Source: Nitrospirota bacterium
GTDB lineage: Bacteria; Nitrospirota; Thermodesulfovibrionia; Thermodesulfovibrionales; UBA6898
NCBI GenBank assembly: GCA_016215155.1
Contig: JACRLQ010000034.1
Span: forward strand, 1 to 41,255
Reading direction: 5' to 3'
Length of the DNA: 41,255 nucleotides
How positions within the stretch are numbered: position 1 is the first letter of the stretch; the number at the start of each line of letters is the position of its first letter. Of the stretch, positions 34,220-41,255 are shown piece after piece. Under the pieces are notes generated by a model. It was given only the letters and a program-made list of their open reading frames with translations. It searched no databases and was not told where the DNA came from. Both the position numbers and the translations under genes were made by a program.

Positions 34220-35830
34220 ATGGATCAGAACCTGACCATCTTCAACCTGATAAGCGAACTGAGCGGGATCATAAACTCAAGCCTGAGTATCGGCACCGTA
34301 TTCAGGATCATGGTCTCGGAGATAAGGAAACTGGTCGGCTATGACCGCGCGAGCCTTCTGTTGTTCAATGAAGCGGACAATAACATGCTGATCTTCGCCC
34401 TCGATACCGAGATGAACACGGTCATGAAAAAAGGTGTGAAGGCCCCGGTAGAAGGCACCAGCGCCGGATGGGTCATAATGAACAACGAGCCCTGGATAAA
34501 CTATGACCTGAGGGACCTCAGATTCCCCCTTGATAAAAAACTCTTCGACGAGGGCCTCAGGTCCACGATAAGCGTCCCCCTTTATCATGACAAGGTCCTG
34601 GGTGTATTCAACCTCGACAGTACCCGGCCTTTCAGATATTCCGAAGAAGACCTCCGGATACTGCTGCCTGCCGCGAAGCATATTTCGATAGCCCTCGAAA
34701 ATGCGCTCCTTTTCCAGGAGATCTCGAGGGAGAAGAAAGAGTGGGAGAGGACCTTTGATTCCATTACGGACATGGTATGGATCGAAGATATCAGGCAGCG
34801 GGTGATCCGCGCCAATCAAACGCTTTTGAAAAAGGCCGGTCTGTCTTCGGTCGAGATTTCCGGCAAACGGTGCTGGGAGATTTTCTACAGGATAGGCATC
34901 AATACTCAGGAATGCGCCTGCTCCGAGACTGTCGCTAGCAGGAGGCAGTCGTTCATGGAATTAAAAGGCATGATGGGACAGATCTGCCATTTCTGGGCTT
35001 ATCCGCTGACCGATGAAGAGGGGCGCCTGTATGCCGTAGTCCATTATCTCAAGGATGTCTCTGACCAAAAGAGGCTCGAACAGCAGCTGATAAGGTCCGA
35101 CAGGCTCGCCTCGCTCGGCACCCTGGTCGCCGGTATTGCCCATGAAATCAATAATCCTCTTGGCATAATTGCCGGGTATTCGGAGGCCCTTCTGGACAGG
35201 GCTAAAGACAAGAAGCTGCTTGGGACGGCGGAGTTCGAGGATTTTCCGGAATACCTCGAAACGATCCATAACGAGATCTTCAGATGTAAGGACATCTTAA
35301 ACAGTCTCCTTGATTTTGCGAGGCCCTCCGGAGGCATATACAGGGAGATCGATATCAATGAACTGATAAAGGAGGTCATCCTCCTTGTAAATCACAGGGC
35401 CAAACGTCTGGACCATAATATTCAACTGAGCCTCAACAGGGACCTGCCCAGGATCTACGCCGATCCCGGGAGCCTCAGGCAGGTCTTCATGAATATCATC
35501 ATGAACTCTATGTACTTTACCCCCGGGAAGGGCAGGATCGTGATAAGGAGCAGCAGGAGCAACGGGATACAGGGGAAGAAATATCTGGAGAATGTTTCGA
35601 GCATCACCGTTTCCGTAGCGGATTCGGGGGCCGGAATCCCCGAAGAAAACATCGATAAGATATTCGACCCTTTTTTTACGACCAAGCCTGTCGGCGAGGG
35701 GACCGGGCTCGGACTTTCGATCTGCCACAAGATAGTCGAGGACCATAACGGCAGCATAGATGTAATAAGCGAGGAGGGCAAGGGCACGACCTTCAGCATA
35801 AGGCTCCCGGCGCGGTCCGGCCATGATTAG
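34220..35830 (+). CDS. Soluble histidine kinase with GAF and PAS domains
   Basis: The 536-residue kinase has no membrane helix, so it senses in the cytoplasm. Residues about 10-165 are GAF (ELSGIINSSLSIGTVFRIM, ISVPLYHDKVLGVFNLD) and about 175-290 PAS, with Cys-rich RIGINTQECACSET. Phospho-acceptor H308 sits in GIAHEINNPLGIIAGYSEAL; the ATPase has NIIMNSMYFT, DSGAGIPEENI, FDPFFTTK and GEGTGLGLSICHKI. The 3' end overlaps the sigma54-type response regulator by 8 nt, so these are partners. No Shine-Dalgarno precedes the ATG. Confidence 0.95.
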   Translation: MDQNLTIFNLISELSGIINSSLSIGTVFRIMVSEIRKLVGYDRASLLLFNEADNNMLIFALDTEMNTVMKKGVKAPVEGTSAGWVIMNNEPWINYDLRDLRFPLDKKLFDEGLRSTISVPLYHDKVLGVFNLDSTRPFRYSEEDLRILLPAAKHISIALENALLFQEISREKKEWERTFDSITDMVWIEDIRQRVIRANQTLLKKAGLSSVEISGKRCWEIFYRIGINTQECACSETVASRRQSFMELKGMMGQICHFWAYPLTDEEGRLYAVVHYLKDVSDQKRLEQQLIRSDRLASLGTLVAGIAHEINNPLGIIAGYSEALLDRAKDKKLLGTAEFEDFPEYLETIHNEIFRCKDILNSLLDFARPSGGIYREIDINELIKEVILLVNHRAKRLDHNIQLSLNRDLPRIYADPGSLRQVFMNIIMNSMYFTPGKGRIVIRSSRSNGIQGKKYLENVSSITVSVADSGAGIPEENIDKIFDPFFTTKPVGEGTGLGLSICHKIVEDHNGSIDVISEEGKGTTFSIRLPARSGHD

Positions 35831-37157
35831 AATCCTGGTGGTTGACGACGAAGAGCCGATAAGAAGGCTCTTAAAAAAAGAGCTGACCCGAAAGGGTTTT
35901 TCCGTCGAGGCCGCCTCTGACGGCGAAGGGGCCTTAGGGCTTATCAAAGAAAGCATCTTCGACGTCATCCTCCTTGATATCGTTATGCCGGGGATAAACG
36001 GTATCGGGCTTATGAAGAAACTCCATTATGACCCGTCTTCCCCGGTAATAATCGTGCTTACCGGAAAGGCGACGGTCGAGACGGCCGTTGAAGCGATGAA
36101 GCATGGGGCTTATGATTACCTCACAAAGCCGTACAAGCTGGACGAACTGGTCATCGTCATAAACCGCGCGTATGAGTATGGAAAATTGAGCATGAAAACC
36201 CAGCTCCTTCAGCAGGAACTCCTGAGGGTAGAGTCAACGTCCGAATTTATATCGAACAGTCCGCAGATGAAGTCCATTATGGGGCTTATAAGAAAAATCG
36301 CCCCGACAGATTCCGCGGTCCTTATCCAGGGCGAAAGCGGCACCGGCAAAGAGCTGGTGGCCAATACTATATGGCATAACAGCGGGAGGAACAGGACCCC
36401 TTTGATAGCCCTTAACTGTGCGACGCTCTCCGAGAATCTAATCGAATCCGAGATCTTCGGCCACGAGAAGGGGTCTTTTACGAGCGCGTACCAGACCAAA
36501 CACGGGATCGTGGAGGTCGCGGACAAGGGCACTCTGTTTTTGGATGAAATAGGGGAGATGCCGCTGGGGCTGCAGGCGAAGCTTCTGAGGTTCCTCGATT
36601 CAGGTGAATTCAGGAGACTCGGGAGTAACAGGACCCTTAACGTTGATGTGAGGGTCCTCGCCGCAACGAACAAAAACCTGCTGGAGAGAGTGAAGGCCGG
36701 GGCATTCAGGGAGGACCTCTATTACAGGCTGAATGTCATAAATATTACTATTCCGCCACTGAGGGAGAGGAGGGAAGACATCTCCGGACTCACCTCATAT
36801 TTTATGGATAAATACAGCCGGAAACTCTCCAAGTCTGTCGCCGGAGTGAGTCCTGACGCCATTGAGGCCCTTGGTCGATATGATTGGCCGGGCAATGTAA
36901 GAGAACTCGAAAATGTGATCGAACGGGCCGTCATACTCTGCGACGCCGGAAGCATCTCGGTAGAAGACCTGTCGATTCCGGCGCTTTCTTTCTCCCCGGA
37001 TGTCACGGGACGACAGCCGTCTCTTGAGGACATGGAAAGGGATTATATTCTAAAGGTCCTTAATGGGGCGCGGGGCAACCAGTCGAAGGCTAGCCAGATA
37101 CTGGGCATTGACAGAAAGACGCTTTATCACAAATTGAAGAAATACGGGATAAACTAG
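35823..37157 (+). CDS. NtrC-family sigma54-dependent response regulator
   Basis: A receiver domain (D8/D9, phospho-acceptor D52 in LLDIVMPGING, lysine in TKPYKL) is followed by an AAA+ domain with Walker A GESGTGK (170-176), GTLFLDEIGEM (Walker B), RVLAATNKNL and FREDLYYRLNV. A Fis-type helix-turn-helix ends the protein (GNQSKASQILGIDRKTLYHK). The sigma54-contacting loop reads GSFTSA (217-222) instead of GAFTGA. The functional threonine remains, but the second glycine is serine. It is encoded with the GAF/PAS kinase and would activate sigma54 promoters in response to it; targets are not evident here. Confidence 0.95.
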   Translation: MIRILVVDDEEPIRRLLKKELTRKGFSVEAASDGEGALGLIKESIFDVILLDIVMPGINGIGLMKKLHYDPSSPVIIVLTGKATVETAVEAMKHGAYDYLTKPYKLDELVIVINRAYEYGKLSMKTQLLQQELLRVESTSEFISNSPQMKSIMGLIRKIAPTDSAVLIQGESGTGKELVANTIWHNSGRNRTPLIALNCATLSENLIESEIFGHEKGSFTSAYQTKHGIVEVADKGTLFLDEIGEMPLGLQAKLLRFLDSGEFRRLGSNRTLNVDVRVLAATNKNLLERVKAGAFREDLYYRLNVINITIPPLRERREDISGLTSYFMDKYSRKLSKSVAGVSPDAIEALGRYDWPGNVRELENVIERAVILCDAGSISVEDLSIPALSFSPDVTGRQPSLEDMERDYILKVLNGARGNQSKASQILGIDRKTLYHKLKKYGIN

Positions 37158-37744
37158 GACCCCTGTCCGAGAAGTGCTCTGTACACTGCTTCGACCTGCT
37201 TTGACGTCTCCTCTTTTGTGCCGGTATTGTCTATCGAATAATCGGAAAGACGGATTTTGTCCTCAATAGGCATCTGTACCGCCAGTCTGGCCTCCGCCTC
37301 CCGAGGCGCTATCCCGGATTTTATCAGACGTTTCAGGGCCTCGTCTTTCGTCGTATAGACCGTAATTGTTTTGTCGAACCTGCCGCTACGGCCCGCCTCG
37401 AAAAGCAGCGGCACCTCAACGACCGCAACCTGCCGAAGGTCCTTCATATCTTTTATGAAAGCGTCTATTTTTTCGAATACCAGCGGGTGGATCAGCTCCT
37501 CCAGCCTGTTCCTGAGGACAGGATCATGGAAGACCCGGCGAGCTATGGCTTTTTTGTCGAGCCTGCCGGAACCCTCAAGCACCCCGCCGATCATCTGTTC
37601 TATACTGTCGATAACAGGTTGTTCTTCCAACAGCTGCTCTACGACCTTGTCGCAGTCAAGCACGGCGGCGCCAAAAGAGGCAAACAGGGAAAGAACTGAA
37701 CTCTTTCCCATACCGTAATTGCCTGTCAGAGCGGCGACGATCAT
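37154..37744 (-). CDS. coaE: Dephospho-CoA kinase
   Basis: CoaE performs the last step of coenzyme A synthesis. The P-loop is GNYGMGKSS (8-16), followed by LDCDKVVEQLL, a DxD-like site, HPLVFEKI, VVEVPLLFEAG and the CoaE-type lid RLIKSGIAPREAEARLA. I chose the ATG at 37744 (196 residues), since the reading frame upstream has no family similarity. No Shine-Dalgarno is visible and TATAAT lies 9 nt upstream. Its stop and the stop of the convergent regulator share the 4-bp palindrome CTAG. Confidence 0.95.
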   Translation of the reverse strand: MIVAALTGNYGMGKSSVLSLFASFGAAVLDCDKVVEQLLEEQPVIDSIEQMIGGVLEGSGRLDKKAIARRVFHDPVLRNRLEELIHPLVFEKIDAFIKDMKDLRQVAVVEVPLLFEAGRSGRFDKTITVYTTKDEALKRLIKSGIAPREAEARLAVQMPIEDKIRLSDYSIDNTGTKEETSKQVEAVYRALLGQGS

Positions 37745-37753
37745 AATGGTTAT

Positions 37754-37759
37754 ATTATA
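37754..37759 (-). promoter_or_regulatory. Probable -10 element of coaE
   Basis: TATAAT on the minus strand lies 9 nt before the coaE ATG at 37744, so the leader would be about two nucleotides or none. A TG lies one base too far for a standard extended -10, and no good -35 is seen. Confidence 0.4.
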
Positions 37760-37785
37760 TGCATATCTGTGTGAAAGTAACATTC

Positions 37786-37979
37786 TAAGATTCCCCTCAC
37801 CCCCGACCTCTCTCTCAATGGAGAGGGGGTTGTATTATTTCACCCGTGGCCGGAGGCGATTTTGATATTTCACCTTTTTATTCTGTAGGGGCAATCCCTC
37901 TGTGGTTGCCCGGTCTGACGAATATCCTATTTTAATCCCCTCGCCCTTGAGGGAGAGGGTCAGGGTGAGGGGGCTCTTA
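37786..37979. repeat. Nested inverted repeats with a REP-like centre
   Basis: A 44-nt C-rich segment at 37786-37829 (with CCCCTCACCC and CTCTCTCAA) recurs inverted at 37937-37979 with roughly 80% identity. Between them, 37885-37911 is a REP-like hairpin (GTAGGGGCAATCC then GTGGTTGCCC) related to the pair at 33923-34030. The 374-nt gap 37784-38157 holds this element and a promoter but no gene. Confidence 0.75.
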
Positions 37980-38046
37980 GGACGGCAGCAGGGGGTCTGA
38001 ACGATTACGGTATGACCTCGGCATACGTCTAGATTTCCCTCCGGAA

Positions 38047-38076
38047 TTGACGCGGTTTTACGCCCTGCGTTATAGT
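38047..38076 (+). promoter_or_regulatory. Probable promoter of the DUF262-HNH gene
   Basis: TTGACG (38047-38052), 18 nt and TATAGT (38071-38076) resemble sigma70 elements. AAGGAG at 38141-38146 provides a ribosome binding site 11 nt before the ATG at 38158. Confidence 0.55.
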
Positions 38077-38157
38077 AAAGAAATAGAAAAAAGTATTATT
38101 CAACGGACGAGATTGATATTATTGGCCAGCATAATAATGAAAGGAGACGAATAATTT

Positions 38158-39459
38158 ATGACGCAAAACATTTATTCAGAATATGGAGATAAGACCATTC
38201 AGGAATTCGTCCACCTATTCAATAACGGCCAATTAAATCTTGAACCGGGGTTCCAACGAAAATCAGTCTGGAACATATCGGATCGTAGAAAACTCATTGA
38301 ATCTATCTTTCAAAACTATCCGGTGCCGTCAATCTTTCTTTACAAACAAAACCATAATGGTCGGCTATGTTACGACGTAATTGATGGTAAACAAAGGCTT
38401 GAATCAATATTGATGTTTCAAGGACTCGGTCGTTTTCGAGGTCAGCGTTATTCGGTGAAGGCACGAATAGATGAACATGAGGGGCTTGCCGAATGGAATT
38501 GGCAGCGCGTTACCAAACGTCGCCATGAGCATCGCTTCATGGGTTATAAGATTCAGATCGTTGAAGTGTCAGGCGAGTTTTCAGACATCGTTGATCTCTT
38601 TGTTCGTATCAACTCCACCGGCAAGAGCCTTGCCGGGGCGGAGAAACGTCACGCCCGTTTTTATCATAGCCCGTTCCTCAAACTTGCTGGCCGGCTTGCG
38701 GAGGGGAAAAAGAAATATTTTGAGGACAATCACATCTTATCAAAAGGTCAAATTAGCCGGATGAAGCATGTTGAATTGACGTGCGAACTTTTAGCATCCA
38801 TCCATGCGTCAGGCCCAATAAATAAGAAAAAGGCACTCGATGGAATTTTAGCTGGGCAGTCGTTTGATCAGCGCAGTATGCAACGTTGTGTGAAAGACTT
38901 TGATCACACACTGAATCTCGTGAAACGTGTTTTCCCCGATCTTCGGACAACACGGTTTAGCAAAGTCTCTGACTTTTATTCGCTTTTCCTGATTGTTTGG
39001 GCAATGGACAAAGCCAACTGCATTCTTACAGACACGAAGCGGAATCAGCAGGCTCAGAAACTGTTGTCGTGGCTCTCTGATGGTGTCACAGTTGTAAGAG
39101 ATCAAGTAAAAAAGGCAGAAGGGGCCAAGCCAGATCAGCGCATTTTTGCAGACTATTTGCTGACTGTGCAAGGTGACACTGACAGCATCGCAAATCGCAA
39201 ACGGCGGGCAGACATTTTGCGCCAAATCGTGGGTGGCATATTCGAGCGGAAAGACGACAAAAGAGGATTTACCGCTGAACAGCGCAGTTTAATTTGGCAT
39301 ACGGAAGAGAATCAAAAGTGTAACAAATGCGGGCAATCATTAACGTGGAACAACTTTACAGTTGACCATGTTAAACCACATTCGCGTGGCGGTAAGACTA
39401 CCTTGAGCAATGCGGCTCTCATGTGCCGCAGTTGTAATTCAATAAAAGGAAATAGATAG
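38158..39459 (+). CDS. DUF262-HNH endonuclease, probable phage-defence protein
   Basis: The N-terminal DUF262 domain, as in GmrS of the GmrSD type IV restriction system, shows PGFQRKSVW (30-38) and DGKQR (76-80), which form the ParB-like nucleotide-binding/hydrolysis site. A helical middle region follows. The last 46 residues are an HNH nuclease with zinc cysteines C388/C391 and C423/C426, DH at 403-404, H408, N418 and N427. The fusion into one 433-residue protein suggests nucleotide-controlled DNA cleavage. It starts a run of three same-strand accessory genes of lower GC than the left part of the window. Function as defence is inferred from family. Confidence 0.87.
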   Translation: MTQNIYSEYGDKTIQEFVHLFNNGQLNLEPGFQRKSVWNISDRRKLIESIFQNYPVPSIFLYKQNHNGRLCYDVIDGKQRLESILMFQGLGRFRGQRYSVKARIDEHEGLAEWNWQRVTKRRHEHRFMGYKIQIVEVSGEFSDIVDLFVRINSTGKSLAGAEKRHARFYHSPFLKLAGRLAEGKKKYFEDNHILSKGQISRMKHVELTCELLASIHASGPINKKKALDGILAGQSFDQRSMQRCVKDFDHTLNLVKRVFPDLRTTRFSKVSDFYSLFLIVWAMDKANCILTDTKRNQQAQKLLSWLSDGVTVVRDQVKKAEGAKPDQRIFADYLLTVQGDTDSIANRKRRADILRQIVGGIFERKDDKRGFTAEQRSLIWHTEENQKCNKCGQSLTWNNFTVDHVKPHSRGGKTTLSNAALMCRSCNSIKGNR

Positions 39460-39547
39460 GAATAAGAGTACTTACAATAATCGAGGCATTCGGGAAGATC
39501 CTCAGTGGTTTTATTAAGGGCTGTTGGGCGTGTGCTAACAAAATACG

Positions 39548-40201
39548 ATGACGAATAACAAATCAACGACACTCGATTTGTACAACTTCTATGCGCAATG
39601 TAATCTTGGCATGCATATAAATTATTATAATGAGCACAGACGACTGGTCCATAATGAGATCGTTTGGATTAATAAGAAATTGCAGGATAGTAACACAGAT
39701 CAGAAGGATCTTATAGAGCTTGAAATCAAAAAACAGACGTATGAATCCTCATATCACGACTACATGATCATAAACTGCTACCTCATGATGTATGCCCATT
39801 TTGAGGAATGTTTGGCTGTAGCTTTTCGACTATTTCCGAAGGGTGAATATGTAACTAATGGAGCCGGTTTGAATAGATTCAATGAGGCTTTTCTGAACAA
39901 ATATTCGATCAGAATAACTGAAGCTCCCTCATGGCCGTTTCTAAATGATTGCTCACAACTGCGTAATGTCCTGCTGCATGCAGCTGGTAACATCACACTT
40001 GTGAGGGACAAAAAGAAAATAGATACTATCATCAGCAGGCATAGCAATTTGGTGAGACTTTCAAGTTCTCGCATTAATCTAGAGGGGCAGATACTAAATG
40101 AATTCTCAAAGGCACTGTCAGAATTTGTAGAATGGGTGGGTTCCAAAATAGAAATGCAGCAAAACTCACTTAAGAAAGACGAAGGGAAACAAAGCGGCTG
40201 A
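39548..40201 (+). CDS. HEPN-like protein of unknown function
   Basis: This 217-residue helical protein contains R139-N140-x3-H144 (LRNVLLHAAG), which fits the R(N/H/D)x3-4H active-site motif of HEPN ribonucleases, preceded by a helix with CYLMMYAHFEECLAVAF typical of HEPN helix 2. HEPN RNases are widespread in toxin-antitoxin, CRISPR and abortive-infection systems. No antitoxin nucleotidyltransferase gene is next to it. It lies 88 nt after the DUF262-HNH gene and 45 nt before a BRO/DinD gene. The start ATG has no clear ribosome binding site. Family assignment rests on the motif and helices only. Confidence 0.6.
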   Translation: MTNNKSTTLDLYNFYAQCNLGMHINYYNEHRRLVHNEIVWINKKLQDSNTDQKDLIELEIKKQTYESSYHDYMIINCYLMMYAHFEECLAVAFRLFPKGEYVTNGAGLNRFNEAFLNKYSIRITEAPSWPFLNDCSQLRNVLLHAAGNITLVRDKKKIDTIISRHSNLVRLSSSRINLEGQILNEFSKALSEFVEWVGSKIEMQQNSLKKDEGKQSG

Positions 40202-40246
40202 CCCTTAGCCGTTGCGAGACGCCGGAATTAGGGAATCAGCTGAAAA

Positions 40247-41077
40247 ATGACGCCTGCACAGTTATTAGCGGGGAGGAAAATCCGCCGCTATTACGATGCG
40301 CAAACAGAAACCTGGTATTTTTCAATTATTGATGTTGTATCAGCGCTTACGGTTTCAATAAATCCGACGGATTACCTGAAAAAGCTCAGAAAAAGGGATA
40401 TAGAACTTGGCGCCTACCTAGGGACAAACTGTCCCCAGGTAGAAATGCTGACAGAAACGAGAAAAAAAAGAAAAACTCTTGGAGGATCTGTTCAACATAT
40501 TTTGCGGCTCGTTCAGTCCATTCCATCTCCCAAAGCCGAACCTTTCAAGCAATGGCTGGCCAAGGTGGGATATGAACGCATTCAGGATATGAGCGACCCC
40601 GCTCGTTCACTCGACCGGGCGCGTGAATACTGGCAACAGCTCGGCAGAAGTGAAAAATGGATTCAGCAGCGGATGATGGGTCAGGAAACCCGTAATAAAC
40701 TCACTGATTACTGGAAAGATCACGAAATTACAAAAGAGGAAGAGTATGCCATTCTCACCAATATTATTCATCAGGAGTGGAGCGGAGTTGATGTAAAAAA
40801 GCATAAAGAAATAAAAGGGCTTAAAACACAGAACCTTCGCGACCACATGAATGAAGCGGAGTTGATTTTCACGGCGCTTGCAGAGCTCTCCACCAGGCAG
40901 ATTGCCGAAAGCGTGAATGCTACCGGAGTGGTTGAAAATGCGGATGCTGGCAAAAAAGGCGGCAAAATAGCCCAAAAAGCCCGCTTGGAACTGGAGTTGA
41001 AAACCGGAAAAAGCGTCATCACATCCGAAAATTATCTTCCTCCAGTAAAAAAACAAAAGCGGTTAACCCATAAGTAG
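40247..41077 (+). CDS. BRO-N/DinD-family protein
   Basis: The N-terminus (IRRYYDAQTETWYFSIIDVV, LTVSINPTDYLKKLRKRD) is a BRO-N domain, found in phage antirepressors and the DNA-damage-inducible protein DinD. The C-terminal stretch AGKKGGKIAQKARLELELKT and SVITSENYL is the DinD-type ending. The 276-residue length agrees. Its function is unknown; DinD has been linked to RecA inhibition in E. coli. It may be a phage or mobile-element passenger, in keeping with the neighbouring HEPN, DUF262-HNH and transposase genes. Confidence 0.85.
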   Translation: MTPAQLLAGRKIRRYYDAQTETWYFSIIDVVSALTVSINPTDYLKKLRKRDIELGAYLGTNCPQVEMLTETRKKRKTLGGSVQHILRLVQSIPSPKAEPFKQWLAKVGYERIQDMSDPARSLDRAREYWQQLGRSEKWIQQRMMGQETRNKLTDYWKDHEITKEEEYAILTNIIHQEWSGVDVKKHKEIKGLKTQNLRDHMNEAELIFTALAELSTRQIAESVNATGVVENADAGKKGGKIAQKARLELELKTGKSVITSENYLPPVKKQKRLTHK

Positions 41078-41145
41078 TGTCTGTGTATGAATTGCCTTTT
41101 TTTGGCCGTCATTCCCGCGAAGCCAACAGTAGACATAATGTATTA

Positions 41146-41228
41146 AACCTGTCCAACCTTAAGCGACGTGGATTAAGCTTAAGGGAATAAACCCAGAGGC
41201 TCAGAGCCACAATTAAGGAGGACAGGTT
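41146..41228 (+). ncRNA. Structured non-coding region before a probable IS110 transposase
   Basis: Long arms pair across the region: AACCTGTCC plus CCTTAA (41146-41162) against TTAAGG plus GGACAGGTT (41213-41228). Inside are the perfect palindrome TTAAGCTTAA and a GGCT-N3-AGCC hairpin (41198-41208). The 3' arm includes the AAGGAGG Shine-Dalgarno of the next gene. In IS110-group elements the non-coding left end encodes the bridge RNA that guides target choice. Whether this region is that RNA or a translational control element cannot be settled with the element cut off. Confidence 0.4.
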
Positions 41229-41255
41229 ATGAAAAATTATAGCAAATACGTAGGG
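41229..41255 (+). mobile_element. Probable IS110-family transposase, 5' end only
   Basis: Only nine codons (MKNYSKYVG) are in the window, after a strong AAGGAGG ribosome binding site. This is how many IS110 transposases begin, continuing as LDVHK at the start of the DEDD RuvC-like domain. The call depends on that short stretch plus the structured upstream region. Nothing downstream can be judged. Confidence 0.5.

Follow-up and report, generated by a model that had tools for sequence, protein, structure and literature searches.

The window analysed here is the entire contig JACRLQ010000034.1 of a Nitrospirota bacterium (41,255 nt), and our subject is a cluster of three open reading frames (ORFs) on its forward strand, close to the right-hand end. 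Gene 1 encodes a DUF262-HNH protein, gene 2 a HEPN protein and gene 3 a Bro-N/PDC-S13 protein (BRO below; Table 1), with gaps of 88 bases between genes 1 and 2 and 45 bases between genes 2 and 3. An earlier interpretation made from the letters alone (the sequence-only reading) had described three same-strand genes of low G+C content and proposed that they form a possible defence module. The description is borne out by the ORF positions and by the G+C profile, with values per kb of 0.43, 0.42 and 0.45 across the cluster and ~0.49–0.58 over most of the window. The proposal is weighed below.

Table 1. Features of the three-gene cluster and its flanks, in positions of the window.
Feature	Position	Strand	Basis
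TTGACG-18-TATAGT promoter, duplicate of the resident one before the zinc-ribbon gene	38047..38076	+	10/12 match; repeat of the surrounding 61 bp
Gene 1, DUF262(GmrSD_N)-HNH protein, 433 amino acids; GmrSD-like, probable DNA nuclease gated by nucleotide triphosphate	38158..39459	+	Pfam, 29-member alignment, model compared with BrxU and SspE
DGKQR nucleotide-pocket motif of DUF262, residues 76–80	38383..38397	+	Invariant 29/29
HNH nuclease domain, residues 388–433	39319..39456	+	PF01844 1.4e-12; invariant residues 29/29
Gene 2, HEPN protein, 217 amino acids; probable metal-independent RNase	39548..40201	+	RTasHEPN 4.1e-9; leave-one-out profile 1e-15
RNVLLH, HEPN catalytic motif (Rx4H), R139–H144	39962..39979	+	Invariant residues 8/8
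Gene 3, Bro-N/PDC-S13 protein, 276 amino acids; proposed defence-operon accessory	40247..41077	+	PF02498 4.8e-6; PDC-S13 2e-111; operon survey
Left end of IS110-like element, truncated where the contig stops; ORF from 41229	41105..41255	+	Copies on other contigs

Properties and distribution of the three genes

Gene 1 combines a DUF262 domain (GmrSD_N, PF03235; 8.2e-23) with an HNH domain (PF01844; 1.4e-12), which stands in place of DUF1524, for which Pfam gave no match at E ≤1. The DUF262 motifs FQR, DGKQR and FxRIN were invariant in an alignment of 29 members (Q33, R34, D76, G77, K78, Q79, R80, F148 and N152, each 29/29), as were the HNH residues C388, C391, D403, H404 and N418. In the second motif, K replaces the first Q of DGQQR, the form given in PMC10952713. 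The top PADLOC profiles were NsnA and PD-T4-2_A. The predicted model, with a predicted local distance difference test score (pLDDT) of 82.9, had BrxU as its top Foldseek match (2.5e-5), followed lower down by ParB-type proteins and SspE, with DndI also listed. Superposition with VIA-align gave Z 9.0 and a root-mean-square deviation (rmsd) of 14.5 over 293 residues for BrxU, Z 8.9 and an rmsd of 4.0 over 147 residues for SspE, and Z 5.0 for the HNH nickase 4h9d. The rmsd for BrxU implies that the domains agree, while their mutual arrangement does not.

Gene 1 thus resembles the type IV systems GmrSD, BrxU, SspE and DndI in its N-terminal DUF262 with QR, DGxQR and FxxxN motifs, in its helical middle and C-terminal His-Me/HNH nuclease, and in having BrxU and SspE as its best structure matches. 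It differs from them in carrying a PF01844 HNH domain with zinc-type cysteines instead of DUF1524, in reading DGKQR where they have DGQQR, in its length (433 amino acids versus 557–771 residues in the matched BrxU, SspE and DndI chains) and in having no modification genes beside it. Because DUF1524 is lacking, we do not file gene 1 as a member of GmrSD, even though it most likely works like GmrSD. Of the nucleotide-controlled nuclease proposed in the sequence-only reading, the DUF262 and HNH motifs and the fold match are in place; control by nucleotide triphosphate and cleavage of DNA would follow by analogy with BrxU and SspE.

Scanning species genomes yielded 39 loci of the gene 1 family, in hosts recorded as Nitrospirae, Chloroflexi, Bacteroidetes, Acidobacteria, Verrucomicrobia, Phycisphaerae and others. 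The 34 close loci (39–69% identity) exclude L132, L133, L135, L136 and L137. With L005 added, and with L003 and L004 counted once as duplicates of L099 and L110, the set comprises 40 loci, none of which had a HEPN or BRO neighbour. With genes 2 and 3 as BLAST queries, the best E among the 39 loci was 1.1. A HEPN profile matched none of 3584 ORFs at E ≤10 across 76 loci (42 gene 1 loci including the two duplicates, 20 BRO loci from genomes and 14 from viruses), and its positive control, the alignment's own members, worked. The largest recurrent neighbour cluster of the gene 1 family covered no more than three loci. Pfam families among 122 neighbours (three of 125 proteins, each >1300 amino acids, were omitted from the Pfam and PADLOC scan) included ResIII and Methylase_S, the type I specificity subunit, three times each; the remainder were mixed, with many housekeeping families that were each found singly. 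In L004, a specificity subunit, assigned from the PADLOC and Pfam counts, precedes the gene 1 relative. Since the neighbour surveys revealed no recurrent partner, the gene 1 family is a solitary, mobile nuclease that now and then lies inside type I restriction loci.

Gene 2 matched no Pfam family. Its core resembles the PADLOC profile RTasHEPN (reverse-transcriptase-associated HEPN; 4.1e-9), with the match limited to the C-terminal half, and a leave-one-out HEPN profile built with the window protein excluded recovered it at 1e-15. PMC3710099 defines HEPN proteins by Rx4-6H, a polar residue after the R and an upstream acidic residue. Gene 2 has all of these in RNVLLH and E86, and E86, R139, N140 and H144 were invariant in all eight aligned HEPN proteins. 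The motif was correctly located at residues 139–144 by the sequence-only reading, and the two residues that it singled out, R139 and H144, passed the alignment check. Its likely RNase agrees with the profile match and the invariant motif, from which ribonuclease activity is predicted. A single-sequence model showed helices throughout, but with a pLDDT of just 47. Unlike in RTasHEPN/DRT systems, no reverse transcriptase was present among the six genes scanned (34220 to 41077).

Among 101 relatives, the HEPN gene occurred in its own genome alone, and it was absent from four genus relatives. Across 395 genomes of the phylum, 12, its own included, gave weak matches (E ≤0.1), and our scans of plasmids, phages, viral contigs and species genomes found no relatives. 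Ten stretches around HEPN relatives contained no gene resembling gene 1. Judged by its sequence, gene 2 is an orphan HEPN protein.

Gene 3 matched Bro-N (PF02498) at 4.8e-6, over the Pfam cut-off, and the PADLOC profile PDC-S13 at 2e-111 along its full length (residues 4–272 of 276). PDC-S13, in which we take the S to stand for 'single gene', is the candidate name of a Bro-N family; here the gene follows a DUF262-HNH and a HEPN gene, and relatives of it repeatedly lie inside restriction-modification and CRISPR (clustered regularly interspaced short palindromic repeats) operons. Similarity to DinD was weak and C-terminal (NCBIfam equivalog NF008573; residues 127–248, E 0.0017). Hence, of the BRO/DinD protein named in the sequence-only reading, the Bro-N part stands, and the DinD identity was rejected with a score of 17.8 bits against a curated cut-off of 242. 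The Bro-N domain is best known from phage antirepressors, and DinD inhibits RecA.

Linkage of BRO genes to restriction-modification and CRISPR-Cas operons

The recurrent linkage of BRO genes to other defences is the most interesting of our results and worth following. BRO relatives were present in 35 of 150 relatives and, at E ≤1e-30, in 57 of 395 genomes of the phylum. We fetched 75 stretches, 55 from 90 listed places in the phylum and 20 from relatives, with most truncated matches excluded, and the BRO gene was visible as an ORF in 74 of them (L156 was lost). At 55 of these 74 loci it had a same-strand neighbour within 150 bases, giving 78 neighbours in total. Their Pfam families included ResIII (16), Cas1 (8), N6_Mtase (7), Eco57I (7), Cas3_HD (6), the MmeI methylase (5) and CRISPR_assoc (3). 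Among the 122 neighbours of the gene 1 family, in contrast, ResIII appeared three times and Cas1 was missing from the 25 families listed, a comparison that serves as a rough control because the two sets were picked by differing rules.

In all, at 30 of the 74 BRO loci an adjacent gene on the same strand, no more than 150 bp away, belonged to restriction-modification or CRISPR. Fifteen of these were linked to restriction-modification, nine named singly via Pfam (L138, L140, L141, L148, L154, L206, L242, L249 and L259) and six assigned by similarity, in some cases weak (L215, L219, L232, L236, L250 and L253). The other fifteen were linked to CRISPR genes, five via Pfam singly and ten by similarity. 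Here, BRO lay beside cas1 (L149, L152, L153, L223, L237, L241, L243 and L247) or cas3 (L151, L222, L225, L226, L227, L233 and L244), and it was immediately upstream of cas1 in all eight cas1 loci. By our assignment, the gene on the other side of BRO in L153, L223 and L247 resembles a cas6-type gene (CRISPR_assoc). Both the cas1 and the cas3 loci belong to the same phylum. Overlaps of 4 bases between BRO and its neighbour were frequent (e.g., L140, L149, L206 and L243), and in L138, L140, L141, L206 and L242, which cover several types of restriction-modification, BRO was flanked by methylase and helicase genes. Literature searches on Bro-N, BRO and DinD listed no paper that describes Bro-N proteins within restriction or cas operons. 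At L210 (2859–3983), BRO lies beside a gene for a YhcG-type PDDEXK nuclease, with a 4-base overlap.

The BRO tree has 74 rows, with one of the 74 BRO loci dropped by a length filter and L241 labelled 'none', though cas1 was later found there. The restriction label changed 14 times, at least 11 of them on well-supported branches, and its spread matched a random distribution (mean after shuffling, 13.9). The CRISPR label changed nine times, at least seven of them on well-supported branches, and was somewhat clustered, as only 1 of 500 shuffles was as low. These many changes show that the association arose repeatedly: BRO became linked to defence genes many times. The closest relative of the window BRO, with strong support, is L206, which lies in an MmeI-type restriction operon.

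Repeated, independent entry of Bro-N proteins into CRISPR and restriction operons points to an accessory step that these systems have in common. A tentative explanation, possible but short of probable, is that Bro-N/PDC-S13 proteins are portable accessories for unrelated DNA-cutting defences and act at a step common to them all, with the window as a GmrSD-like instance. Their partners would be type I, II and III restriction-modification, type I CRISPR-Cas by way of cas1 or cas3, and DUF262-HNH nucleases, and the common step might be, for example, DNA repair after cutting or nuclease expression.

The 14 loci with viral relatives of BRO had mixed settings. Besides L088 and L089, discussed below, BRO lay beside ResIII in L091, beside Fic in L094 and beside a RepA-type gene in L087.

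Origin of the cluster and its interpretation

In the four genus relatives examined, coaE and a zinc-ribbon-type neighbour are adjacent. In the present genome, the gene following the zinc-ribbon neighbour sits near the end of another contig, C94; the C94 side also carries an ORF of bacteriohemerythrin type. The 61-bp promoter stretch at 38045–38105 has just two genomic copies, one preceding gene 1 and the other preceding the zinc-ribbon gene (C94, 36762–36821), and the same type of promoter sequence is found beside coaE in the genus relatives. In addition, a 119-base stretch at the start of coaE is repeated on C94 (79%). The simplest account is an insertion of the cluster between coaE and the zinc-ribbon gene that duplicated the intergenic region and placed gene 1 behind the resident promoter, in which case the window contig (C3) and C94 would face one and the same gap. 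The promoter scan was at chance overall (6 found, 6.6 expected), and therefore the promoter call rests on conservation instead of on the scan. The terminator scan was likewise at chance (5 found, 3.9 expected).

As all three genes are of defence types and the acquired segment lies behind a promoter of resident type, this is likely a defence locus. We consider it fairly probable that it represents an acquired cluster of additive defence genes, served by one resident-type promoter from which they would be transcribed together, and that the three were not passed down as one block. In gene 1, the DUF262 domain most likely would bind a nucleotide triphosphate and be triggered by some property of foreign DNA, probably a modification of a base or of the backbone. 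Hydrolysis would then free the HNH domain to nick or cut the foreign DNA, as in GmrSD, BrxU and SspE. Gene 2 most likely would act separately, as a HEPN ribonuclease that cleaves RNA if infection persists, and so add a second, abortive layer of defence against phages. Gene 3 would be the portable accessory that recurs in operons of DNA-cutting defences, and it more likely modulates expression or DNA repair after cleavage than cuts DNA itself. The trio would then be a locally assembled mixture of defence genes of known kinds; what it adds is a compact, widespread GmrSD-like family in which a true HNH domain replaces DUF1524, together with an orphan HEPN protein.

Several points weigh against this interpretation. 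The same strand, the short gaps and the single promoter could reflect a co-adapted operon that is merely rare. No close homologue of the HEPN protein was found anywhere searched, and the co-occurrence of its exact subfamily is therefore beyond the reach of our survey. With HNH instead of DUF1524, a dependence of gene 1 on DNA modification would be an analogy. The overall rmsd with BrxU is high, and the predicted model aligns well for separate domains alone. Finally, 44 of the 74 rows of the BRO tree carry no restriction or CRISPR label.

An alternative explanation might be a unit made up of genes 1 and 2 alone, in which the DUF262-HNH protein senses and restricts, the HEPN protein is its coupled RNase effector and BRO is a passenger. 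Pairs of this kind exist elsewhere. In L024 and L027, a DUF262 gene is directly followed, on the same strand, as in the window, by a RiboL-PSP-HEPN gene (PF18735; 1.4e-18 and 1.6e-14). Moreover, PMC3710099 lists RiboL-PSP-HEPN as 'operon with ParB', alongside a fusion with DUF262 and HNH and the case of MAE_28990 with a ParB nuclease, and PF18735 is matched by two of the eight members of the alignment of gene 2. However, the DUF262 proteins of L024 and L027 lack HNH, gene 2 itself does not match PF18735 at E ≤1, the genes of L027 overlap by 4 bases where the window has its 88-base gap, and the 40 DUF262-HNH loci are without HEPN. We therefore regard such a unit as doubtful. Directly 3′ of a DUF262 gene in L017 (239–883) and L018 (611–1255) lie genes for 215-amino-acid proteins with RNAC(Q/L)H and without an informative Pfam match, which may be a further HEPN type combined with DUF262.

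It is rather unlikely that genes 1 and 3 are instead the functional pair, with BRO as an accessory of the DUF262-HNH nuclease, a role it appears to have for other restriction enzymes, and HEPN as the passenger. The order EcoRI-type methylase, BRO, DUF262+HNH in the viral contigs L088 (907–4515) and L089 would favour such a link, as would the position of BRO between methylase and restriction helicase in the five operons mentioned above. Yet L088 and L089, the only BRO/DUF262-HNH neighbours outside the window, are near-identical, their DUF262 is just 21% identical to that of gene 1, and none of the 74 chromosomal BRO loci has a near-family DUF262-HNH neighbour, nor a HEPN one.

The IS110-like end, the upstream repeat and the duplicated promoter would also be expected if mobile genes had accumulated by chance at a hot spot for insertions and had no present function. 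All three reading frames are open, however, and their catalytic motifs are intact, which makes this explanation improbable.

A dedicated three-gene system confined to this lineage, for which the single strand, short gaps and one promoter speak, seems least probable of all, as the trio is missing from all other genomes examined, genes 1 and 3 are widespread but apart, and the HEPN gene is absent from the four genus relatives. The possible defence module of the sequence-only reading is not upheld in this form, because the trio finds no support as a conserved or named system; that orthologues should never be neighbours elsewhere was the outcome it had named as refuting, and this is largely what the neighbourhood survey found. 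An acquired, additive cluster is more consistent with these results.

Flanking element and intergenic sequence

In the gap between genes 1 and 2 (39460–39547), an integron attC-like site was considered and dropped, as the Rfam scan gave no support. The matches in that scan were microRNA models far under their gathering scores, which we treated as chance.

The transposase that the sequence-only reading noted next to the trio is present, but with its first nine codons only, because the window is a whole contig that ends inside a repeated element. Copies of this element, whose family we take to be IS110, occur with 98–99% identity on five other contigs, together with a shorter copy at 93%; one copy reads MKNYSKYVGLDVHKETIAVGIA.

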